From contig JABMLP010000033.1 of the NCBI GenBank assembly GCA_013176395.1, positions 62,001 through 126,000 of the forward strand: 64,000 nt of DNA. The letters are read 5' to 3'. Source of the stretch: Venturia oleaginea. Its lineage: Eukaryota; Ascomycota; Dothideomycetes; Venturiales; Venturiaceae. Under the pieces are notes generated by a model. The model made no database searches and was not told where the DNA came from. It saw nothing but the letters and a program-made list of their open reading frames with translations. Positions within the stretch are counted from its first letter, which is position 1. Every line of letters starts with the position of its first letter. This document shows positions 3,873 through 53,953 of the stretch, in pieces. The position numbers and the translations under genes were made by a program.

Positions 3873-4735
3873 CTAACAAGTGCGGGAGTTATGCCCAGTC
3901 TCGCTGCAACGGCCGCAGTGCCTCTCTCCACGTACCCTCTTCGCAGGCTTCTCACTATCATTACGATTACCACCCTCCCTTACAGTAACTAAGTCAGTTA
4001 CTTCACCAGCTGTCAAGGTCTGCTCAGCCCGTATATATCTCCTTTTGCGACTCTTACGCTTTGTAACTGCCTCAATTGCGTCTCGAAGGCGCGCTGTTTC
4101 TTCGCGCATCAACACCATTTCATGTGCTATCTGCTGCGCGCCTTTACTCAACTGCCTGACCTGCTCATCAATAGAACTTGCAGAGGATCCTGGGCCTGTA
4201 ACGACTAGCTGAGACGATATCTTGCCTATTAAGAAGCCAGATTCATCAAAATTGTAGATATCCTCGTCTATGATACTGTACTCTGCCTTTATCTTCTGAA
4301 CAAGTGTGAACCAGGGTATAATAACCGCCGGGTCTTCGCAGGCAGCTCGCTGGCGATCGTATGGACGGCTCCATTGGGTGGTAAGCTCTGACGTACGCTT
4401 TACCAAGTTGTTAACCCAGTTCTTGCCAACAGGCTTCTCACCCCGCTCTCTTAGTAGTTTATTAGCCATATCTTGTACGTAGGCCTTCGACGGCGGTAGG
4501 CCGCGTAAGCTTTCGTTAAGAATACGCTTAATAACCACCTCAATCGCTTCGAGTTCGGCTCGCATTCGCGTCGAGGGCGCTGTCCGGCGCGTCGGCGTTG
4601 TACTGTTGTTCGAGGTACGCTATATATTACTGCAGCGCGTCTTTCGCTTTGGATTTGCTTTGAATTGATATCTGAGATAGCAAGGAATATATCTCCTTCT
4701 TTATAGATCTTCTGCTTTTCGTGTTGTTGAGGCAT
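3873..4735 (-). pseudogene. Fot1/pogo transposase remnant of element 1 (frameshift plus core deletion)
   Basis: The N-terminal helix-turn-helix (MPQQHEKQK to about SVPRTTVQRR) lies in the frame ending at 4451. The CENP-B/Tc5-like second DNA-binding domain (MANKLLRERGEKPVGKNWV, RPYDRQRAACEDP) continues in another frame from about 4565, so a frameshift separates them. The first catalytic Asp is present in YNFDESGF. Soon after VVTG the sequence jumps in frame to the C-terminal coiled coil (HEMVLMREETARLRDAIEAV, KRKSRKRRY) and a CCHC knuckle, CGRCSETGHNSRTC. The second and third catalytic Asp of the DDD triad are therefore deleted. The surviving domains are those that bind DNA or multimerise. Confidence 0.85.
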
Positions 4736-6238: not shown

Positions 6239-7353
6239 ACGTAGTCTATAGGCCTATGCGCCATATATGCCTGTGCGCCAACCCTACCAAACGCGACGCG
6301 TTCCTCCATTACCACACGAGATGGTACCGCCACAACGACAAGAGGCCTTACACCGAGAAGGTAGGCTTAAACTAGTTGTTCAAGCCTATAAAAACGGCCA
6401 TTTTCAAAGCTATAGAGCTACCGCGCAAGCCTATGACGTCCCACGAGATACCCTGCAACGCCGTATTGCTGGTACTCAACCACGACTTGGTTCTACCGCG
6501 AAAAACCGCCTCCTTACACCCACCGAAGAAGAGTACCTTGTACAGCGTATACTTTCAATGGATGAACGCGGTATGCCACCTACTGTTGCCGCCGTACGGA
6601 CTATGGCAAGCCTTTTAGCCAGTCAACATGGCCAACTCGTCTCTGCAGGCCAATGCTGGGTACGCAACTTTATTAACCGCCACGACGTACTAAAATCGAA
6701 GTACAACCGCAAGTACGACTACCAGCGAGCAAAATGCGAAGACCTAGACCTAATTCGAGCCTGGTTTGAACGCGTACGACGTACACAAGCTGAGCATGGC
6801 ATCCTCGATGACGATATCTACAATTTTGACGAGACTGGTTTTCAGATGGGGGTAATTTCAACTGCAAAGGTTGTTACAGGAGCAGATAAGGCTGGGAGAC
6901 CGAGGACAACGCAGCCAGGCAACCGTGAGTGGGTTACGGTTATTGAGGCTATTTGTGCGAAAGGGTTTCCAATTCCTCCGCTCGTTATTTTCGAGGCAGT
7001 AATGCACCAGGCAGCCTGGTATTCAGACGGGATCCTACCACCAGATTGGGCAATTGGCGTGAGCGAGAACGGCTGGACAACCAACGAGATAGGTCTCTGG
7101 TGGCTAGCAGAATACGCCTACTGAGGGGGTTGAAAATGTAACTGCTCAGGTACGGCAACGAGCACCACCAAAGTGCAGCGTATGCCAGTCGCTTGAGCAT
7201 AATGCTAGGACCTGCCCAGAGCGTCAAAGAACCAATTAAAATGTATATTACTGTTATAGATGGCGGTGTTGTTGAAATATATACGTTTTTTGTAAGAATA
7301 CTCGGTGGGGTGGGCGCACAGGCATATATGGCGCATAGGCCTATAGACTACGT
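6239..7353 (+). mobile_element. Fot1/pogo-type DNA transposon, internally deleted (element 2)
   Basis: Inverted repeats of about 45 bp: the left end starts ACGTAGTCTATAGGCCTATG at 6239, and the right end is its near-perfect reverse complement ending at 7353. TA duplications flank it at 6237-6238 and 7354-7355. The 1115-bp length is well below the roughly 1.9 kb of full-length Fot1-like elements. The element ends about 400 bp downstream of the polygalacturonase stop codon. Confidence 0.9.
6267..7239 (+). pseudogene. Fot1/pogo transposase of element 2, core deleted
   Basis: An open frame runs from the ATG at 6267 to a stop near 7124 and encodes 285 residues. It has an HTH-psq type domain (residues about 30-70, with YDVPRDTLQRRIAG), then a CENP-B/Tc5-type domain (LTPTEEEYLVQRIL to RKYDYQRAKCEDLD), then the start of the DDE_1 core with the first catalytic Asp in YNFDETGF. 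It is intact up to SENGWTTNEIGLWWL and then breaks. The C-terminal zinc knuckle (PKCSVCQSLEHNARTC) follows directly in another frame and ends at 7239. The second and third catalytic Asp are missing. The 285-residue frame could still be translated as a DNA-binding fragment of the transposase, but no evidence for expression is visible. Confidence 0.85.
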
Positions 7354-31205: not shown

Positions 31206-33183
31206 GTCCAACAACCTGTGTCCACGGTTTCATCCAAAGATCAAGGGAAACGAAAAGAATCCGTTCCACCGCCGCCTCCGCCGCCTCCGCCTCAAAGACA
31301 ACGTACGGCAGGACCCGAGTCGGACGAAGACGAGTCTGAAGAAGAGATGGCCTCTTCAGGACGGAACGAATCCCACGACGATCGAAACAAAGCCAAGGTC
31401 AATCCACCAGAAGTGTTCAAAGGGGAACGCGGCAACTCAAGACATTCCTTACACAATGCAATCTGTATATGTATTGGAACGCTTCCGAGTTTAGTACCCA
31501 TGAAAAAAGAATCATGTTTGTCATCAGCTACATGAGAGGAACAGCTTATGCATGGATCGAAGACCGCCTCAACGGGTATCTCGATGATCCCAGCGAGTAT
31601 GAGCATCGACGACTCTTTCTTTCGTATATGGAGTTTAAGAAAGAAATCAACATGGTCTTTGGAAATGCTGATGAGAAGAGGATCGCCGAACGAGAGCTCA
31701 AGGTTTTGAAACAACATACATCCGCAGCAGATTACTCCGCCCACTTCCAGCGCATTGCTGCATACCTTAATTGGGGAAGTGAGGCCCTGCTCAGCCGATA
31801 CTATGATGGCCTCAAGGAGGACATCAAGGATGAAATCAGTCGGAAAGAAGATCAGCCTCAGGACCTGCATTCGATGATTGAAACGTCAATCAAGATCGAC
31901 AACCGCCTATTCGAAACAAAACTTCAGAGGAAGTGAGTTAGTTCTTATCGAGGACATGGAAGCAACAGTCGTGCGAACACAGGTGTTCGACGAATTGATC
32001 CATACGGACCACAGCCAATGGAGCTCGACAAGATTCAGAGCGCTCCACGTGGATCCAAGAAAGGCACAGGTCAGAAAGGAAAGTGTTACAACTGTGGAAA
32101 GACAGGACATTATGCCAACAAATGTCGACAGCTCAAAAAGAACAACACTGGACGTTTCACGAATGAGGGACAACGATTCGGAAACTCACCCATGGGCTCA
32201 GGACACCTCAACACTTTACAATCCAATGCGTCAGTACCGCCAATTCACGACGTACTGAGCTGGACGGCTTGTTATGAGGACGACTGCAAGGTACACCTAT
32301 CCGAGAAGCAGGGCTCCGGATACTACCGTCGGGGTAGAGGAGGTTACCAAGGCAACGGCAATGTCAAAGGACATCTCGCTATGATGAGTTCGTCATCTAG
32401 CTCACCCGGTCTTTATTGCACTCAGTTGGGATTGCCAAAACCAGAGCATGGCCCAAACCAATTCAGGGTTGGGAATACAATGGCTGCTTTCAAAATTATC
32501 AGCAGATACCCAAGCATGAAAAAGAATCCGGAACACGATCTTCACTGGGTGATTCCATCGAACTGGTGCAAAGTCAAAGAATGCCCACTGTGGGAGCACA
32601 AGTCCGAGGAAGACCCAGGAGAACCAGATTGGGAATTCCACTGGGTTCACGAAAAGGAAGTCAACAATACGACCCTTAGGAAGATCATCAAAATCCCAAA
32701 CATTCGTACAAATATACAGCACATCCACCACAGACACCTACCAATGAATTGGTGCGAGAATGAGGAATGCGATTTACCTCAGCACCAGGAAATGGAAGAT
32801 CTTGGAGAAATACTCCACGAGTTGCCAGCCATTTCCGGGAGTTGGTCTACACCAAACGAAAACGAATCTCTACAGACTATGTCGGGCGACGACAGTGAGT
32901 CTACGGTAGAAGACAACTCCGACGAAGAAGAATCGAAGGAAGATCCAGAGTTTATGACCTTCCGGCTCTCACGTTTTACACGAGACATTGAGCGAGCCAT
33001 CAATCAGGACGATTCTTGCCATAAGGAACTCAACCCAGATGCATGTATCTGCTTCACCTGCCCATACCATCCGAATGGGGCAAGGAACCTTCGACACCTT
33101 GTCCGACGATTGGACATCGCAGTCAATACGAAGCAAGCACGCAAATGGCATGAGAATTCGGGAAACGAGGAGGATCAACAGTA
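31206..33183 (+). pseudogene. Gag-like region of the chromovirus, frameshifted
   Basis: Three overlapping frames are needed. The first has a Pro-run and an acidic stretch. The second (31469-31936) is the capsid-like part with MRGTAYAWIEDRL and AADYSAHFQRIAAYLNWG. The third (32018-33184) begins with the nucleocapsid knuckle CYNCGKTGHYANKC (CX2CX4HX4C) and continues for over 300 residues of hydrophilic sequence, longer than usual for a gag tail. At least two frameshifts separate these parts. A genuine start codon could not be fixed. Confidence 0.75.
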
Positions 33184-35517
33184 GAGAGGCCTCTGTTGAG
33201 TCCTAATGAAGCGCCTCATTTTCTGAACAACCTTGGCACACCCAAGATGCTGGTCGAAGGAAAGATCGACGACGTACCAGCATGAGCCTTCATCGACACT
33301 GGTGCCGATAGGAACCTTCTTAGCGAGAAATTGGTCGACGAATGGAAACTACCCGTACGGTCGAAACGGCATCCATATCCACTAACTATCGCCGATGGAA
33401 GACCTGTTGACTCCAATGGAGGCATGGTGATTTACGAAGCAGACGTAACCTTGTGGATACAAGGGAGGAAAGAACAGATTGTTCTAGACGTCACGAATAT
33501 TGGAGACTCGGATTTGATCCTTGGTCTGCCATGGCTTCGAACTCACAATCCGCATATCGACTGGGGAGCATTGACGCTCACGTTCCCAGACCAACGATAT
33601 CCCGTGCAGGCTAGCATGCGCGCTAGAACACGGACAGCACAAAGACCTTTCGGAAAAGGCCCACACAGGTTGAAGTGGCTTACTGCTATCGTCTCCAGAC
33701 AGAGGAGGATAGGTCAGTGTTCCAAATTCCCCATGAGTAACAGGAATTTGTGGAACTTTTTAAAGAGGAATCGATCGAAGATTCTCTTCCACCACACCAA
33801 CCATGGGGTCATGAGATCAAGCTCAAGAATAATGAACAACCGAAGAAGTTCAAGATCTATCCATTGAGGGAAGATCAGCTTGAAACCCTTTCGTGAATAT
33901 ATCGACGATTTCACGAAGAAGGGGTTCATCCGGGAGTCGAAGCCACCCGCCGGATATCCAGTTTTCTACGTACACAAGCCCGATGGTTCACAGCGAATGT
34001 GTGTCGATTACCAACATCTGAATGGGATTTCAGAGAAGAATGCGTACACGCTGCCTTTAATCCAGGAGTTGAGAGACAGACTCCAAGGAGCCAGATGGTT
34101 CACGAAATTCGATATTCCTGCGGCTTTTCATCGAATTAGGATTAAGGAAGGTGACGAGTGGAAGACAGCATTCCGCACTCGCCTTGGGCACTACGAATAT
34201 CTTGTCATGACCTTCGGTTTGACAAACGCCCCTGCGACGCTGCAAGCCTATATGAACAATGTGCTTCGCGAGCACTTAGACAAGTTTGTGTCTGTTTATA
34301 TGGATGATATTTTGGTTTACTCTCGAACGTTCGAAGAACACGTCAAACACGTTCGAATCGTCCTCGGCGCACTACAGAAATTTAACTTACGGCTGAAACC
34401 CTCGAAAAGCGAATTCCACAAGCAACGAATCAAGTTCGTTGGATGTTTTGTCTCTCAAGATGGACTTGAGATTGACCCGGAAATTTACCAGAAGGTCCGC
34501 GATTGGCCGGTACCCTCGAACGTCAAAGGAGTACAGTCATTTCACGCCTTCGCGAATTATTATCGACAATTTATCGAAAGCTTTTCCGAAGTTGCAGAAC
34601 CCCTCACGGGATTGATGAAGAAGGGGATTACCTTCGAATGGAACGAGCATGCGCAAAAGGCCTTTGACGCACTCAAGATACGGTTAACAACACCACCCAT
34701 TCTGCAACTGTTTGACTCAGAAAAACCAGCCACAGTCGAGACGGATGCGTCCGATCGAGCCCTCGGAGCATGCCTCAGCCAACCCGATTCAGATGAAAAG
34801 CTTAGACCAGTAGCTTACCACGCACGAAAATTCCTGAAAGCAGAAATCAACTACTCCACTTCAGACAAGGAACTCATGGCCATGGTTGATGCCTTCAAGC
34901 ACTGGAAGCATTATCTTGAAGGAGAGAAACACAAGATTACCGTGTATTCCGATCACAAGAATCTGCGGGATTTCACGACGACAAAAGAATTGAATTGACG
35001 GCAACTAAGATGGTCAGAAGAACTGTCATCTTACAACTTCCTTTCCTTTACAGGAAAGAAAAGGAAAACGTTAACGCCGACGCATTAAGTCGACGAGAAG
35101 ACTTCATGGCAGGAGAAAAAGAGAAAGTCGAACGCGCTTTGTTCCGACAGGAAGGTGATGCACTTGTGCACCAAGTCTCATCACTTCAGACAGGAAATCC
35201 CTCTTATTGGCAAGAGGTCAAGAACGCGCAGCAAAAGGATCCAGATGTACAAGGCTAAATTCAATCAGCAGATCAGAATACCCGTATTGAAGACGGATTG
35301 TTCCTCTTCAATAACTTGGTATATCTTTCCACAAGCCTTAGGAAACAGTACATTCTACATCAACACGAATCTCCACTCAATGGTCATTGCCGACCAGAGA
35401 TTGTCCTTTCACGACTTCAGAATACCTTCTACTTTCCGCACATGCGACAGGAAGTTTTCAGGAAATAGGAAAGTGTGTTCTTTGCAAGAAAGCCAAATAC
35501 GAACGACACAAGCCCTA
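33184..35517 (+). pseudogene. Protease, reverse transcriptase, RNase H and integrase zinc-finger part of chromovirus pol
   Basis: The retropepsin active site reads AFIDTGAD near 33285-33310, preceded by an in-frame stop. Frame 33880-34998 (372 residues) carries RT motifs including KFDIPAAFHRIRI, FGLTNAPATLQAYMN and the catalytic YMDD at about 34299-34310. RNase H follows with VETDASDRALGACLSQ and YSDHKNLRDF. A stop and a frameshift break the RNase H tail (ELN then RRQLRWSEEL). The ADALSRRED tether continues in 34995-35258. The integrase HHCC finger is split by a frameshift, with KCVLCKKAKYERHKP just before the Fot1 insertion at 35518. Confidence 0.85.
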
Positions 35518-36641
35518 ACGTAATTCACTAGCGAGCGGGCCACACCACCGAGCGGGCTACCGAATCGATCATTTCATCTTTGCAAGCCTCTACACCACCA
35601 CCTCATGCCTTCTAAAGCCCAGCAAGAAGGCCGATTACTTCTTGCTCTTCAAGCCTATCAAAAAGGCCAAATCACAACTATTTGCCAAGCTGCATTAGCT
35701 TATAATGTACCATACAGTACCCTCAAATATCGCCTCTCTGGACGCGTTGCACGCGTCGAAACGCGCGCAAACAGCCACAAACTTACTCCCACAGAGGAAG
35801 AAGTCTTAACTCAATGGATCATCTCAATGGATAATCGAGGCTATCCTGCTCGAGTCTGTGCAGTACAGAATGCGGCGAAATTACTGCTTCAACAACGCGT
35901 CGGTCCCTCAGCCTCAATCGGTATCAACTGGTCTGCCAGGTTCATCAAGCGACAGCCTACCCTGCAATCGAGATTCAATCGCAAGTACGATTATCAGCGT
36001 GCTCAATGCGAAGATCCAGAGCTTATCGGAGCCTGGTTTCGGCTTGTGAGTAATACAGTTCAGAAATACGGCATTCAAGAGGATATCTATAACTTCGATG
36101 AGACTGGCTTTGCAATGGGTATTGCAAGCACCTCACGCGTCGTTACTACCTCAGATCGACGGGGCAAGCCACCTCAATTACAGCCAGGCGATCGGGAGTG
36201 GGTTACAGCAATTGAAGCGACTGTTGGCAGATGAGAATGAGAAATTGAGAGCAGCGAATGAGAGGCAAAAGAGGAAGAGAGCAGTCAAAAAAAAGCAGAT
36301 CTCAAAGAAAATAACACTTACAGTTGCAGAGGCACAAGGCCTGATGGAGAATACTGTACAGCAGCCTATACAGGCAAGTGTTGCTCCTATACAGCAAACA
36401 GTTGTTGCAACAGCCTCGTCATCAAGTAGTGCAAGTCAAGGGAATTGCTTTGGTTTACCTAGTTGTTTTGTATGTAAGGGCTTTGACCATGCTGCGAGCG
36501 ATTGCCCTAAATATCGATAATCTTCTGTATAATAGATAGTCTTGATTAATTAAGGCGTTGTGGTGGTGTAAGCTTGCAAAGATGAGATGATCGATTCGGT
36601 GGCCCGCTCGGTGGTGTGGCCCGCTCGCTAGTGAATTACGT
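35518..36641 (+). mobile_element. Fot1/pogo-type DNA transposon, internally deleted (element 3), inside chromovirus pol
   Basis: Inverted repeats of about 70 bp: the left end begins ACGTAATTCACTAGCGAGCG at 35518 and the right end is its reverse complement ending at 36641. TA precedes it (35516-35517). The expected right TA is displaced by a 52-bp hairpin and appears at 36695-36696, where pol coding resumes. Total length is 1124 bp. It is inserted at the TA of a Tyr codon in the integrase region. Confidence 0.88.
35605..36520 (+). pseudogene. Fot1/pogo transposase of element 3, core deleted
   Basis: The frame from the ATG at 35605 gives 209 residues: an HTH domain (LAYNVPYSTLKYRLSGR), a CENP-B/Tc5-type domain (KLTPTEEEVLTQWIISMD to RKYDYQRAQCEDPE) and the first catalytic Asp in YNFDETGFAMG. 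It stops right after PGDREWVTAIEAT. The C-terminal part follows in another frame (36098-36520): coiled coil RLLADENEKLRAANERQKRK and zinc knuckle CFVCKGFDHAASDC. The deletion removes the second and third catalytic Asp, much as in elements 1 and 2. Confidence 0.85.
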
Positions 36642-37370: not shown

Positions 37371-37863
37371 ATCACACCCAAGCAGCGAAATCACGACTAC
37401 GATGGTTACTATTGTCTCCAGCATCACACAACCAAATACACCGCCGCATAGGAATCTGGTGCAAGGCAACTTTCACAAGCAGAAACATACTTAGGGAACC
37501 CATTGGCCTTGAGGGATAAGGCGAAACAGATAGACAAAGCTGAGCATTAGAGGGAGACTGTAGGTAGAAGGATAGCGAAACACGAGGCATTGCCTCTTGA
37601 GTCTACATAGCACAGATATACTAGCAGAATAACCAGTATCTACAAGAGCCAGCGGGCATTTGGAGATACTGGTTAAGGGAAAAGAGGGAGGACGGAGGGG
37701 ACAGCTGGTCTTGTTTCAGTGAACGGGGCGAAGTGGGGCGCGGTGGATTATATAATCTATCACGTGTCGGCTGTCTGATGAAGTCCTCCTAACCGGACAT
37801 AGCTGCGTGATTAAGCGGCTGCAACCGAGTAGGATAAAATCAATCAATCAATCAATCAATCAA
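36721..37863 (+). mobile_element. 1.14-kb non-LTR-like insertion with 15-bp target duplication and (AATC)n tail
   Basis: TCAACCCAACAAGGC occurs at 36706-36720 and again at 37864-37878, bracketing the insert; with one copy removed the chromovirus integrase frame is continuous. The right end is an (AATC)n run (about 37837-37863) directly against the second copy. A variable-length target duplication and a simple-repeat 3' tail are typical of target-primed non-LTR elements (LINE or SINE), so orientation is taken as plus. No open frame has a recognisable domain. The left half is a 353-bp tandem repeat. It could be a 5'-truncated LINE 3' end or a SINE-like element. Confidence 0.75.
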
Positions 37864-37878
37864 TCAACCCAACAAGGC

Positions 37879-38998
37879 ACCCGACGGTGCATGGAAGACC
37901 ATATCGATGGACTTCGTTGGACCATTGCCACCTTCTCCGAACTTGGATAGTGTTCAGTTTGAACATATCATGGTTGTGATAGATCGACTCACGAAGTACG
38001 CGATCTTGATCCCACTACCGAAAGGCTGTGACACGCAATACTTGGCAGGAGTATTTGTGCGGGATGTCGTCAGCAAGCATGGCATTCCTGATAGTATCAT
38101 CTCGGATCGAGACAGCCTCTTTACCTCTCATTTTTGGAAAGAGATCTGTGAGATGTTAAAGATCAGAAGAAGCTTATCAACAGCTTACCACCCTCAAACG
38201 GATGGACAAACAGAAAGAACGAATCAGACAATGGAACAGTACCTTCATATCTACGTCGATGACGATCAAAGCAATTGGGTATCGCTTTTACCTCTTGCAG
38301 CATTCGCTTATAATGCTACTGTTCAGGACACAATCAAGATGTCACCATTCTTTGCTAACTTTGGACGAGAACCTCAATTAAACCTCTTACCCACAGAAGC
38401 AACCGTTGTTGCCTCTGAGTTGTCACGGCTTCAGGAGCAATTGAAGCGTGACATTACCTTCTTGAATATGCGCATGGCGATGCGTACGAATCAGAAGAGA
38501 ACAGTGGGACCTGTTCTTAAGAAGGGGGATAAATTTTACCTATGACGACGCAACATCAAGACGAAACGACCAAGCGAAAAACTTGACTTCCAGAAGCTCG
38601 GTGCTTTCGAAATCGACGAAGTCAAAGGTGCAGTCAACTACAAACTCAAGCTACCCAAGGGAATGAGAATACACCCGGTGTTCCATATCTCCTTGCTTGA
38701 ACCAGCACACCCAGACGCCCCGTTTGACGAAAAAACAATACTCCAAGGCGATCAACTTGAGCCTGAGTATGAAGTCGAAACAGTTCTTGATCACGCTATT
38801 ATACGACATCAGCACAAGTACCTCATCAAGTGGAAAAACTATCCTACATCGGAAAACACTTGGGAACCTATGTCACACTTGTCGAACTCTCTCCAAGCTC
38901 TGCGGGATTTCCACCGGGCAAATCCACAGCACTCCAGTCCACCGTCCCTGACCCGTCTGGAGAAAAGAAAGAAGCAAAGTCGGAAGGCTCAGAAGTAA
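37879..38998 (+). pseudogene. Integrase core and chromodomain of chromovirus pol
   Basis: Continues the pol frame after the nested insertions. The DDE core has the first Asp in SMDFVGPLP, the second in SIISDRDSLFTSHFW and the Glu in STAYHPQTDGQTERTNQTME. One stop codon interrupts the frame near 38543 (after KKGDKFYL), then it reads on through KLPKGMRIHPVFHISLLEPA to a C-terminal chromodomain (VETVLDHAIIRHQHKYLIKW, then TWEPMSHL). Chromodomains of this type steer integration towards heterochromatin marks. The last 131 bases overlap the antisense ORF. Confidence 0.85.
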
Positions 38999-44526: not shown

Positions 44527-45507
44527 TCAAGCGTATTTCTCCTTCGTGACAGCCTCCTTTAACCTTGTAGCAATCTTCCTCAATGCTGATAACTTCTCCA
44601 CTGTGGACGCCTCCGCTGCGGGCAAAGCCTGCTTGACAGCTATGTTCTTTCTCGTCATCTCTTTATTGTTGGAATGACCCCACGAGAATTTAGGAGCATG
44701 TGGGCGCAGTCTCAAAGCTTGTTCTGTGTTAAAATCCTCCTTGTAATCATAATACCGCTTGATGGCTACCTCGTCTTTGAAAGCCATTTCACGAACCGTG
44801 GCAATAGTGCGTCTTGATAGTGGTGCTCCATCAGAGACAAAGTCCCAGCGAAGCATCGTGCCGTGGGAAGTCTGTTGTAGTTCAGTGTAATATCTCATGC
44901 AGTTAAGATTTGTGGAACTCACTGTTTGCCTAGTCTGGAGCACAAGTGGCATGGCCTTGATGAGTCCACACTCCAAACTCGGGAAATTCTTGAACTTGTA
45001 GCGAAGAAACTCGACAGCCGGAATCGCAACGACAGCATTGTCAATCGTGTCATTTTTTCCCTTTCCTGGCCGAGGCTCGCCATGTGGATGCAATGCGCCT
45101 TGGTAATGTACGCTAGCCCAGTCCTTCTGTGGCACGATCAATGTCATATTGACACTCCAATTGGTGTCGTCGTAAACATGGAACCGTTTCAGCTTTGGAA
45201 GCCATTGAACAATTAGAGGACCCCTAGCAGCCAATCTGTCGCCATTGCGGAGTAAGACGTCTTTAATGTAGCTTCTCGCTTGTTCTCCGAGAGTCGAGAG
45301 TCTGATCAAGGCGTCGGCGTTGGACTTGGAAAGGAAAGTGTTGTCGCTGTATAGGGCTGGGAGCGCTTCATTGTATATGAGTGTGCTGGTCCGAAGGAGC
45401 TGGCTTGAGGCGCGGACAGGATTCTCGGTGTCTGCGATTGCGACGACAAGGGGGTTCTTGTAGATTTTGAGCCGGAGCTCTGCAGGCAGATCGTTCCAGC
45501 CCGCCAT
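44527..45507 (-). CDS. F-box-like hypothetical protein
   Basis: One exon, 326 residues, starting at the ATG at 45507-45505. The N-terminus WNDLPAELRLKIYKNPLV followed by LLRTSTLIYNEALPALYSDNTF fits the short F-box-like/leading motif of the large fungal families that begin LPxELRxxIY and then describe a node with YSxNTF. Such proteins often act as substrate adaptors of SCF ubiquitin ligases, but this short form may lack a true Skp1-binding F-box. No repeats are visible downstream, and the C-terminus is Lys-rich and helical. No intron is required. Function unknown. Confidence 0.65.
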   Translation of the reverse strand: MAGWNDLPAELRLKIYKNPLVVAIADTENPVRASSQLLRTSTLIYNEALPALYSDNTFLSKSNADALIRLSTLGEQARSYIKDVLLRNGDRLAARGPLIVQWLPKLKRFHVYDDTNWSVNMTLIVPQKDWASVHYQGALHPHGEPRPGKGKNDTIDNAVVAIPAVEFLRYKFKNFPSLECGLIKAMPLVLQTRQTVSSTNLNCMRYYTELQQTSHGTMLRWDFVSDGAPLSRRTIATVREMAFKDEVAIKRYYDYKEDFNTEQALRLRPHAPKFSWGHSNNKEMTRKNIAVKQALPAAEASTVEKLSALRKIATRLKEAVTKEKYA

Positions 45508-46042
45508 CCTAGTTCACAGTTGGTTGAATTCCTGGTATTCTCCTGGGTGATGGAGTTGTAGATAGGCTATGAGATTGAGTGCGGTCTTTGGAATGTCGGA
45601 AATGAGTTGTCTGAGCAGAGCCTTAAGCCTATACATTGCCAAGAATGGTGTTGATACTGTGGCTCAGGTCGGAACTCATCAACAGACGCGTGCAACATTG
45701 CACTCCTGCACCGCTCTCATCTTCAAAACAGCGTTGGTAAGTTTCTCCCATTCCCAGACCCTCATAGATTCGGCCTCGATCCAATTATGGGTATCTCGAA
45801 AGGCTGGTCAGTAACAGCTTGAGATACAGAGAAACATATTCGCTTAACAAGCCTAACACAAGATTGAGTATATTAGAGTCGATCCGAAAAGATTGTATGA
45901 AGAGGAGCAGCCACACGACGTGCCAGATTATCTACTAGCAATTCTTCAACGCCCGACAAGCTGGGCATTTTCGAGCCAATCTTGTCGATTTCAAAGCTCC
46001 TCCTCCTACGTCAACAGATCTCGGAGGGTCTTAGTCATCAAA
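45508..46042. other. Intergenic region between the F-box-like gene and the tRNA-like gene
   Basis: About 530 bases. It holds only a short frame (45569-45814) without recognisable content, and presumably the promoter of the minus-strand F-box-like gene. Confidence 0.45.
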
Positions 46043-46180
46043 GGCACTGTGGCGGAGTGGTTATCGCGATAGACTAGAAATATATTTCCTTAGGGAACGC
46101 AGGTAAGTTTCTCTTGAGGAAGGCAGTGGAAGGTGATGTGGTGCTAATATCAGTACTAGGTTCAAGTCTTCTCAGTGTCG
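46043..46180 (+). tRNA. tRNA-Ser(AGA)-like gene with a 57-bp intron-like insertion in the T arm
   Basis: Acceptor stem GGCACTG (46043-46049) pairs with CAGTGTC (46173-46179), with one G:U pair, and G46180 is the discriminator. An A box TGGCGGAGTGG lies at 46050-46060. The anticodon loop CTAGAAA gives AGA (serine). A long variable arm (TTCC/GGAA) fits class II tRNA-Ser. The T arm is split after CGCAG by 46103-46159, which starts GTAAGT, has GCTAAT at 46143-46148 and ends TAG. The B box GGTTCAAGTCT resumes at 46159. Without the insert the gene is 81 nt, normal for tRNA-Ser. The anticodon stem has one mismatch and the T stem has a mismatch plus G:U pairs, so it may be a pseudogene. Confidence 0.7.
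46103..46159 (+). other. Spliceosomal-intron-like insertion in the tRNA-Ser-like gene
   Basis: 57 bp, starting GTAAGTTTC and ending CAGTACTAG, with a branch-like GCTAAT 11 bases before the 3' AG. This matches the length and signals of the protein-gene introns in this window. AGGT occurs across both junctions (46101-46104 and 46158-46161). Canonical tRNA introns lie next to the anticodon and have no such signals, so this is not one. Confidence 0.65.
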
Positions 46181-46212: not shown

Positions 46213-46216
46213 TTTT
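46213..46216 (+). terminator. Possible RNA polymerase III terminator
   Basis: TTTT run 33 bases after the tRNA-like 3' end. Four T is the minimum for Pol III, so this is weak support only. Confidence 0.35.
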
Positions 46217-46807
46217 GCTTCGATTAAGTGTGCGGAAGAATTGTTGCCTGTGGTGGCCCTTTCATCACCATGGTTGGTTGAAATGGAAGAGTTGACGAAT
46301 GCTGAAGGTTGGGCCGTGTGGGAGTTGTCGATGGGCAAAGCGAGATTGGTGCCGGAAGTCTAGCCTCATCAAGCAAGGCGCAGAGAGTATTCCACCCCTC
46401 AAAGACTTCCTTCTCTTCATACCAGTAGAAATATTCGGTTTAGGTCTTTGATAATAAATCAATCAACCAATAGGAAAGACTTGCAGTGAATCATCAACGA
46501 AATTTAGGGTGACATCTTCCATTCGCGACTAAACTAAGTATTGTTCAAATCCCAGAAAGCAAAGGCCATAATACCATGAGTAAGGCTCTTAAGCTGTCAT
46601 ATCTCTCAAAGAAGAGTTCCTTGGTCTAAACCATTGATGAAAACCGGCAATGAAGCAAATCCAGCATACTCGTGACACCACTCCAACACGCCATGCACTC
46701 CTAACCAGAAAAATCACTCCACCCTCAGATCCACAGTGAGATCTGATTGCGAAGGTCATCGTCATCCACCCTCAGATCCGCCATCGTTGCTGTAAGCGTC
46801 GAGAGAT
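46217..46807. other. Intergenic region between the tRNA-like gene and CDC48
   Basis: 3' flank of CDC48. No gene recognised; a 65-codon minus frame has no domain. Confidence 0.5.
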
Positions 46808-49566
<2,759 letters not shown>

Positions 49567-52106: not shown

Positions 52107-53953
52107 ACGTGTTCCACAACCGAGCTGGTCAACCCACCGAGCTGGTCAAAAAGGCTTGGCACGACCAACTCATGTTACGACTCTTTAATTTAATCGCTAT
52201 TAACAATAGATTCTAAGTCCGTCGTGCTGCTATCTGATTCAGATGATATCTCGATATCTTTTTTACAAGTTCGCGCATTATGCCCAGTTGCGCCGCAGTT
52301 CCTACAGCGCCGTTGAGTTGGTCGGGCTATTTATTGACCACCACTACCACGAGCCTTCTTTGATCCCTGAGGCGCGACAGACGCCTCGGCAGCTACCTGC
52401 GCTGCTACAGTCCCATACTCTATAGTACCACCTTACTGAATCCACTTCCTTTTGCGCGATTTTCGCTTTGTCATTACTGCCAATTGCTCTTCAAGCTCGC
52501 GGTTGCGCGCAACAAGTAGAGCGTTTTGGTGTAGCATCAGTTCAGCGCCCTTGACAAGCTGGGAAAAGCCTGCCTGCGCAGTAACTGGTGACCGAGTAAA
52601 GGACTCGCTTACGAGCTTGGATTGGGATCCAAATTCAAGAGTATTGCTTGGAGTCTTCGACTGCCACGGCGTCTCCTGCGGTGGGGGTGCTGGTGGGGTA
52701 CGTAGCCGTACTTCAAGGCGATCCAATACCATCTCCGCGTTGATAGGGACTAGCCCTACCATCTCAAAAGCCTTTCGACAGTTCTCTTCTGTAAACACGT
52801 CGAAAAACGCGTCTTTGAAGACTGGGAGGAAGCCTTCTTTGTTGATATGGTAGACGCGTCGGCGTGCCAAGTCTCGAACTCGTTGAGAGTACTTGCACTT
52901 CAACGGCGAGAAGCAGACCACATCAAGCGGCTGGAGGATATGCGATGAATGAGGTGGCATACAGAGCGTTATGATCTTATGTTCGAGGCAGTAGTCCTTG
53001 AAATCCTGGTTGAGATGGCTCTCATGGCCGTCCAAGATGAGCAGCCTATACCCCCCCACTTGACGCGCCTTTGTATACGCGTCAAAGTGCTTCAACCACT
53101 CAAGACCAAGCGCGTTGTTTGTCCAGCCGTTCTCAGACCGAGAGCTTCCAATTCCGTGGTATATCTGCCTCCTCATACCACGCAGAGATGTGAACGCGTC
53201 CTTTGTAGATAATGAATGGCGGGGTCGCATACCCAGCGGCGCAGATGCTCTGGATAACTGTAACCCACTCGCGATCGCCTGGCTGGATCAAATCAGGCCG
53301 TGTACGTCTTTCAGAAGCTGTGACGACCTTCATTGACCCAATAACGCCCATCCGGAAGCCAATCTCATCAAAGTTGTGCGTATCCTCGTCGTGGATGCCG
53401 TACTTTGCCTTGGTGTCTGCAACGAGCTTGAACCACGCGCCAATAATCTCTGGATCTTCCTGTAGTATCCTCTGCCTATCCTTAGCTCGATTGAAGGGCA
53501 TCTTGAGCTCATCTGAGCGCGTTATAAACCTCACAGCCCAGTTTTTCCCTACTGGCTCTCCACCGCGTACACCTAGTAGTTTATCCGCCATATCTGCCAC
53601 CTCACACAGCCGGGGCGCGAATCCTCGCGAATCGAGGTCGAGGATGTGTTGGACAATTGTCTGCTCTTCAGTCGTAGTGAGCTTGTGCTGGGCGTTGCGA
53701 GTATCTAGGCGATACGTGATTCCGTTGTATCGGCTAGTCAATGTTGAAGGAGGTACATCAAACGCTTCAGCAGCGCGCCGGAGGCTTCGGAATTGGTGGG
53801 TGTTGTAGGCAGAAAGGGCAAGCTGAATTCTGCCTTCTCTGTTAGACAATTGCGCATTTTGTTGTTGAGACATATCGTGTTAATGAGGGAGTTGGTCGTC
53901 TTGGCAGAAACTGACCAGCTCGGTGGGTTGACCAGCTCGGTGGTGGAACACGT
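52107..53953 (-). mobile_element. Fot1/pogo-type DNA transposon, near full length (element 4)
   Basis: 1847 bp, the usual size for Fot1-like elements. Inverted repeats: the left end begins ACGTGTTCCACAACCGAGCT at 52107; the right end at 53953 is its near reverse complement. TA flanks both ends (52105-52106 and 53954-53955). The motif CCGAGCTGGTCAACCC is repeated just inside each end, as in the other three copies. The transposase gene is on minus and fills most of the element. Confidence 0.9.
52190..53873 (-). pseudogene. Fot1/pogo transposase of element 4, frameshifted with two stops
   Basis: The frame from the ATG at 53873 encodes an HTH domain (FDVPPSTLTSRYNG), a CENP-B/Tc5-type domain and the start of the DDE_1 core with the first catalytic Asp in HNFDEIGF. 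It shifts frame near 53135 (after NWKLSV) and resumes at SENGWTNNALGLEWL. The second Asp (LLILDGHESH) and third Asp (HSSHILQPLDVVCFSPLK) are both present, so the DDD triad of pogo transposases is complete across the break. The C-terminal coiled coil (ARNRELEEQLAVMTKRKSRK) is followed by two stop codons before the zinc knuckle CRNCGATGHNARTC. The frame would end at 52190. Not functional as it stands. Confidence 0.88.

Follow-up and report, generated by a model that had tools for sequence, protein, structure and literature searches.

The genome of Venturia oleaginea contains at least 13 tRNA genes that carry, together, 15 inserts of the spliceosomal type, and these inserts are very probably, as judged from their sequences, functional U2-type spliceosomal introns of nuclear tRNA genes. 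One of the genes is located in the window analysed here, a stretch of 64,000 nucleotides (C27:62001-126000) of the 46.08-Mb assembly of 61 contigs that was searched; this copy may be a member of the set that has begun to decay. The inserts are found between tRNA positions 52 and 53 (52/53), at 53/54, 57/58 or 29/30, or in the D loop.

The window gene encodes tRNA-Ser(AGA) and occupies positions 46043-46180 of the plus strand. The preliminary description had claimed that it is cut by 57 bp that start with GTAAGT, hold GCTAAT 11 nt before their end and finish with TAG; this was confirmed by RF00005 and ARAGORN, which place the insert at 46103-46159, between T-arm positions 52 and 53. Exon 1 (46043..46102, +) comprises positions 1-52, that is, the 5′ side of the acceptor, the D arm, the anticodon arm, the variable arm and the 5′ side of the T stem, as delimited by the RF00005 match, by alignment to the four other Ser(AGA) genes L002-L005 and by ARAGORN on the spliced form. 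Exon 2 (46160..46180, +), delimited by RF00005, ARAGORN and stem scoring, holds positions 53-73 with the T loop, the 3′ sides of the T stem and acceptor and the discriminator. The 57-nt spliceosomal-type intron between them (46103..46159, +; GTAAGT...CTAAT...CTAG) has the 5′ splice site GTAAGT at 46103..46108, a branch-site-like CTAAT at 46144..46148, in which A46147 would be the branch nucleotide at a distance of 12 nt from the end of the intron, and the 3′ splice site AG at 46158..46159, all on the plus strand; seven other tRNA genes are cut at 52/53. The RF00005 match spans exactly 46043-46180, insert included, and its 23.1 bits are below the 29-bit gathering score. ARAGORN found no tRNA in the unspliced gene and a tRNA-Ser(AGA) after the 57 nt had been dropped. 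AGGT is present at both junctions and removal of the insert restores the tRNA, as had been described. The accompanying idea of a duplication-driven gain does not hold in general: apart from the window gene, AGGT at both junctions is seen in L003 alone, which is one of 14 inserts.

The tRNA gene sits between an ORF at 44527-45513 and CDC48 (last exon end near 46808); both neighbours are on the minus strand, so the tRNA gene is part of no intron of either. Just downstream of it, at 46440-46502 on the minus strand, a SNORD34 match was seen that stayed below threshold (22.8 bits against 38). Protein similarity agrees with a source in the Venturiales (Dothideomycetes): a predicted tRNA/rRNA methyltransferase has identities of 83 % with V. 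inaequalis and 81 % with V. nashicola, a kinesin has 89 % with V. effusa (best match 93 %, to an unnamed protein) and a zinc-finger regulator has 96 % with V. inaequalis. The window ORFs 3873-4619, 6252-7124, 35524-36234, 52433-53879, 31937-34998 and 37838-38545 are, by eye, presumably fragments of pogo/Fot1-type transposases and of a Gypsy-type retroelement.

Using the segment 46030-46200 as a query against the own genome, five Ser(AGA) genes were obtained, three of which are interrupted at 52/53 (the window gene, L002 and L003) and two of which are uninterrupted (L004 and L005). Among the Ser(GCT) genes, L053 carries an insert at 52/53, L059 one at 57/58, and L099 and L100 two each, at 52/53 and 29/30. 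The other interrupted genes are those for Ser(TGA) (L121, 57/58), Gly(CCC) (L056, 52/53), Leu(TAG) (L102, 52/53), Arg(TCT) (L051 and L101, the latter at C20:147032-147158, both 53/54) and Arg(CCG) (L057, D loop). An anticodon intron is present as well in the interrupted Gly(CCC), Leu(TAG) and Ser(TGA) genes.

These loci were gathered in several ways. An Rfam tRNA search, in which 63 of 1697 first-look candidates were scored, gave 62 matches, 15 of them on contig C38, which is read as mitochondrial. Pattern searches and queries of the own genome with single tRNA genes were used in addition; as the Rfam list held only 7 of the 13 interrupted genes, 13 is a lower bound. In the loci examined, a non-random sample, ARAGORN recognized 36 distinct other nuclear tRNAs. 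The patterns served as candidate finders only: CTAAY upstream of a T loop gave 81 matches against 125 for the reversed-pattern control, that is, no enrichment, and CTGAY in the same position gave 146 against 77, candidates being drawn from the first places listed. The CTAAY pattern led to L101, L099 and L102, and 30 loci from this pattern were also run through a tRNA-shape script. By eye, no tRNA likeness was seen in 14 pattern places (L071, L076, L079, L094, L095, L097 and L113-L120), and none of L103, L104 and L105 is tRNA-like. Two further loci were left out of the set. The Arg(TCG)-like L058 (C45:1547090-1547185), with GGTTCGAG followed directly by GTAGG, has no 3′ exon within 400 nt and is either truncated or provided with a long intron. 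The tRNA-like L106 (C13:552000-552180) is called Leu CAG by ARAGORN, the anticodon loop being enlarged by 69 nt, and was judged too ambiguous in identity for inclusion; its acceptor, GGATCCG/CGGATCC, is fully paired. L054 (C19:646319) and L055 (C60:820814) are identical tRNA-like sequences (35.7 bits) whose near flanks are identical too; they may be a relic that was duplicated.

The signals in the inserts are those of mRNA introns. All 15 have GT-AG ends, and 13 of them contain a CTRAY word, the A of which is separated from the insert end by 9-18 nt; the two without it, one each in L099 and L100, have weaker TTGAT- or TTAAT-like words there. A 5′ site of the form GTRNGN is found in 13 of the 15, the exceptions being one of the two L099 introns and the insert of L003. 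The inserts are between 49 and 89 nt long: 13 measure 49-60 nt and the others 69 and 89 nt. For comparison, the five CDC48 introns in the window, delimited by eye with the help of the reading frames, have lengths of 50-62 nt, start with GTATGT, GTGCGT or GTGAGT and contain CTAAC or CTGAC, with a branch spacing of 10-12 nt in four of the five; the script put the fifth at 22 nt. Random window segments of insert-like lengths combined GT-AG ends with a CTRAY word at this spacing of 9-18 nt in a fraction of 0.0001 of 400,000 trials. This control and the recurrence in 13 genes rule out a chance resemblance, and the initial observation of mRNA-type intron signals in a T arm is supported; 12 further tRNA genes have GT-AG inserts.

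It is unlikely that the inserts have simply killed the genes, which would then be tRNA pseudogenes with unspliced intron sequences, perhaps acquired through reverse splicing. For Ser(AGA), Ser(GCT), Ser(TGA) and Leu(TAG) there are also genes in which the T arm is whole, and the interrupted copies of these isotypes could therefore be dispensable. In its treatment of insertions in the D and T arms, most of which affect one of many synonymous genes, PMC4090602 supposes that they mark pseudogenes. The spliced forms argue against this for the set as a whole. ARAGORN recognized a tRNA with a sensible anticodon in all 13 of them, that of L121 being tRNA-Ser(TGA), and in only 4 of 12 unspliced forms, two of which it misidentified. 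When G-U is counted as a pair, the acceptor and T stems of 11 of the 13 spliced forms are without a non-pair. The exceptions are the window copy, with a C-C opposition in the T stem and a further non-pair in the anticodon stem, and L059, with one non-pair in the T stem; in the 10 genes of which the anticodon stem was scored, the window copy alone has a non-pair there. In the anticodon loop of L101, position 33 is an A, although U is expected there in tRNAs; the other ten genes have no non-pair in the stems that were scored.

Comparison of related copies points in the same direction. L003 without its 53 nt is identical to L004 letter for letter, and the 1.5-kb flanks of the two have nothing in common beyond the tRNA at E 0.01. 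The exons of L099 and L100 are identical at 81 of 81 positions, yet their introns have diverged to shuffle level, with interior identities of 0.53 and 0.47 against shuffled means of 0.49 and 0.51. Likewise, the Arg(TCT) genes L051 and L101 agree in 71 of 72 exon positions and have unrelated introns. The anticodon stem of L053 differs from that of L099/L100 by two compensated pairs (TTGGC/GCCAA versus CGGGC/GCCCG). The introns of the window copy and L002 have an identity of 0.60, above the shuffled 95 % limit of 0.56; this is the only one of eight comparisons above the limit and may be due to chance or to remnant homology. The pattern is apparently that of exons under selection and introns free of it. 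The same picture could be produced by recent gene conversion confined to the exons, but this would have to skip the introns.

The suggestion in the preliminary description that the gene may have been killed keeps some force for the window copy. With its two stem mismatches this is the most decayed of the 13, which suggests that it is losing function, and it is rather doubtful that it still gives a usable tRNA. Its acceptor, GGCACTG/CAGTGTC, is unlike those of L002-L005, yet fully paired, as would be expected after a long period of use. The presence of intact Ser(AGA) genes at other loci had been named as part of a possible refutation, and L004 and L005 are such genes. The reading as a lone pseudogene with a chance insertion nevertheless fails for the set, because the acceptor, anticodon and T stems of the interrupted Ser(AGA) genes L002 and L003 are without a non-pair and other isotypes are hit as well.

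Spliceosomal introns are normally found on Pol II transcripts, and the interrupted loci could be spliced noncoding Pol II RNAs with a tRNA-like part, the intron belonging to the host transcript. We consider this very unlikely. At the window gene there would be room for a plus-strand transcript, the ORFs of both neighbours being on the other strand. Every intron, however, is located wholly within the tRNA, which is restored by its removal, and the flanks of L003 and L004 have no likeness beyond the tRNA at E 0.01. Sequence words of the kind expected of Pol III genes are also present in most of the set. In the window gene, TGGCGGAGTGG (46050..46060, +) and GGTTCAAGTCT (46159..46169, +) are an A-box-like and a B-box-like word by the consensus; the latter runs across the intron 3′ end and consists of the G of the 3′ AG plus the start of exon 2. 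The first downstream TTTT (46213..46216, +), 32 nt past the tRNA end, is a possible Pol III terminator. In the introns at 52/53 and 53/54, the AG abuts GTTCRA or TTCGA, by which the DNA keeps GGTTCRA or AGTTCGA, and in L002, L053, L099 and L100 the DNA word GGTTC is nearer to the B-box consensus than is the spliced RNA. The D-loop intron of L057 starts with GTAGG after TAATG and keeps the A-box word TGGCCTAATGG. Overall, the B-box word is intact in the DNA of 11 of the 13 genes and is broken by the two introns at 57/58 (L059 and L121). TTTT within 40 nt downstream is present in 10 of the 13 interrupted genes, compared with 33 of 43 rows of other nuclear tRNAs (duplicates included) and a fraction of 0.13 of random 40-mers from the window; in L059 and L051 the first 60 nt after the gene are free of TTTT. 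As the B-box word is mostly kept and T-runs mostly follow, transcription of the interrupted tRNA genes by Pol III is likely.

U6 genes of the same genome provide a parallel, as had been anticipated from other fungi. Seven U6 matches were obtained (47 of 2907 first-look candidates scored), four of which, including L112, have an uninterrupted length. Two interrupted genes show clear signals, CAGAGAA|GTAAGT...CTAAC...ACAG|GATTAG in L108 (C12:1178091) and GCATG|GTAAGT...CTAAC...ACAG|GCCCC in L109 (C36:59841), and end in T-runs; in the third, L110 (C2:1122156), the intron is degenerate. The U6 gene of fission yeast contains an mRNA-type intron that is spliced during maturation and is thought to originate from reverse splicing, according to the passage on it in PMC10484740. 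The likeness to this system lies in the presence of a spliceosomal intron in a Pol III-transcribed noncoding RNA gene. The difference is that U6 is itself part of the spliceosome, which suggests how its intron arose, whereas tRNAs are not, and that several isotypes and positions are affected here. The inserts are not a general feature of Pol III genes: 33 5S rRNA matches above the cut-off (47 of 2145 first-look candidates scored) are all at most 121 nt long and none is enlarged by an insert, so Pol III genes have not been hit at random.

Introns of nuclear tRNA genes are located mostly (PMC4090602) or exclusively (PMC3978253) at 37/38, with Cyanidioschyzon and nucleomorphs as the exceptions in these accounts, and are removed by a protein endonuclease and a ligase (PMC4090602; PMC3978253). 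In Cyanidioschyzon merolae and in nucleomorphs, introns are also described in the D arm, the anticodon stem-loop and the T arm, sometimes two or three per gene (PMC4090602; PMC3978253). It is conceivable, but highly improbable, that the inserts are ectopic introns of this kind and that the tRNA splicing endonuclease removes them, as it does in those systems and in archaea. T-arm, D-arm and 29/30 introns are known there (PMC4090602; PMC3978253), and three of the interrupted genes have anticodon introns too. The positions used here are, however, not 37/38, the usual one in most eukaryotic nuclei, and the full central helix of a bulge-helix-bulge, with four pairs, is formed at the splice sites in none of the 14 introns tested (all but that of L121). 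When the sites are slid by up to 2 nt, two of the 14 reach four pairs, which is about chance by estimate, and several of the values of three out of four depend on wobble pairs. The missing bulge-helix-bulge is not decisive, because many ectopic nucleomorph introns form no defined one, as stated in PMC3978253, and many of those of Guillardia theta lack it. The ectopic introns of G. theta differ from the present ones in being 3-24 nt long instead of 49-89 nt with spliceosomal signals, and those of C. merolae in being tied to the bulge-helix-bulge; in the parts of PMC4090602 and PMC3978253 that deal with these introns, GT-AG ends or a branch site are not mentioned. An endonuclease has no need of either. 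Canonical 37/38 Sen introns occur in many tRNAs of this genome, including the three interrupted genes, and differ from the inserts in position, mostly in length (6-29 nt in nearly all ARAGORN calls) and in their ends: 0 of 21 ARAGORN-called introns of other nuclear tRNA genes are GT-AG with a slide of 2 nt allowed, although some calls misplace the intron. Chlorarachniophyte nucleomorphs have both permuted tRNA genes and ultrasmall spliceosomal introns, none of which is named as being in a tRNA gene in the sections of PMC4494063 concerned.

As to the origin of the introns, rather than their splicing, spread of a transposon-like introner family through the tRNA genes, as had been proposed, would account for the several isotypes hit and for the use of 52/53 in Ser(AGA), Ser(GCT), Gly(CCC) and Leu(TAG), but is barely credible, since 17 introns (14 of tRNA and 3 of U6 genes, L121 being left out) share no blastn similarity at E 0.01, the 171-nt query with the whole window intron found no copy, which is no proof of rarity, and intron-containing queries of the own genome for six isotypes (Ser(AGA), Arg(TCT), Ser(GCT), Arg(CCG), Leu(TAG) and Gly(CCC)), by which diverged copies would be missed, gave none outside tRNA genes of the same family; an old, diverged introner family is possible. 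Ser, Gly and Leu tRNAs have all been hit at 52/53, immediately 5′ of the conserved GTTC. Either reverse splicing may have acted repeatedly on a proto-splice site, or the Ser genes may have inherited the position from a common ancestor.

If the inserts are spliceosomal introns, the following route can be proposed. Pol III would transcribe the genes from their internal A and B boxes, which introns at 52/53 and 53/54 would leave readable, the last G of the intron substituting for position 52 or 53. U1 and U2 would recognize the pre-tRNA at the GTRNGN-like 5′ site and at CTRAY, and the intron would leave as a lariat, like that proposed for U6 of fission yeast. The anticodon introns of Gly CCC, Leu TAG and Ser TGA would be cut by the tRNA endonuclease, and the spliced tRNA would then fold and be processed normally.

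The Arg(TCT) family has a special place in the set. With an Arg(TCT) query, no uninterrupted gene was found in the genome search; there are two copies, L051 and L101, and both are interrupted, which also speaks against the pseudogene reading. AGA codons are in use, nine of them, for example, in the kinesin stretch. If assembly and search are complete, L051 would have to be spliced for the cell to live, as only interrupted Arg(TCT) genes are available. For Gly(CCC) and Arg(CCG) one gene each was found, and their codons may be read by other isoacceptors. Taking these observations together, we lean towards a reading in which the spliceosome would act as a tRNA-processing machine in this lineage: tRNA-Arg(UCU), which is indispensable, would come only from genes with a T-arm intron, some tRNA-Ser(GCU) would require two spliceosomal events, translation of AGA would depend on pre-mRNA splicing capacity, and introns would be tolerated where their AG rebuilds the B box.

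To our knowledge, no spliceosomal intron is known in tRNA genes. No report of one was found in the titles and abstract openings of the open literature; subscription papers and preprints were largely outside this scope, and an earlier report is possible. In lichen-forming ascomycetes, GT-AG spliceosomal introns occur in rRNA genes at proto-splice sites, that is, in Pol I transcripts and not in tRNAs.

If the inserts are spliced, there is a practical side as well, since genes of this type can escape programs that search for tRNAs; 8 of 12 unspliced forms are missed by ARAGORN. Paralogues with and without introns offer a natural experiment in which intron gain can be followed at known sites and reverse splicing tested as the source. 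If the introns are indeed spliced, the spliceosome would accept short, structured and presumably uncapped Pol III transcripts, the supply of tRNA would depend on how much splicing the cell can carry out, and the two splicing systems would no longer be strictly separate in this lineage of the Venturiales.
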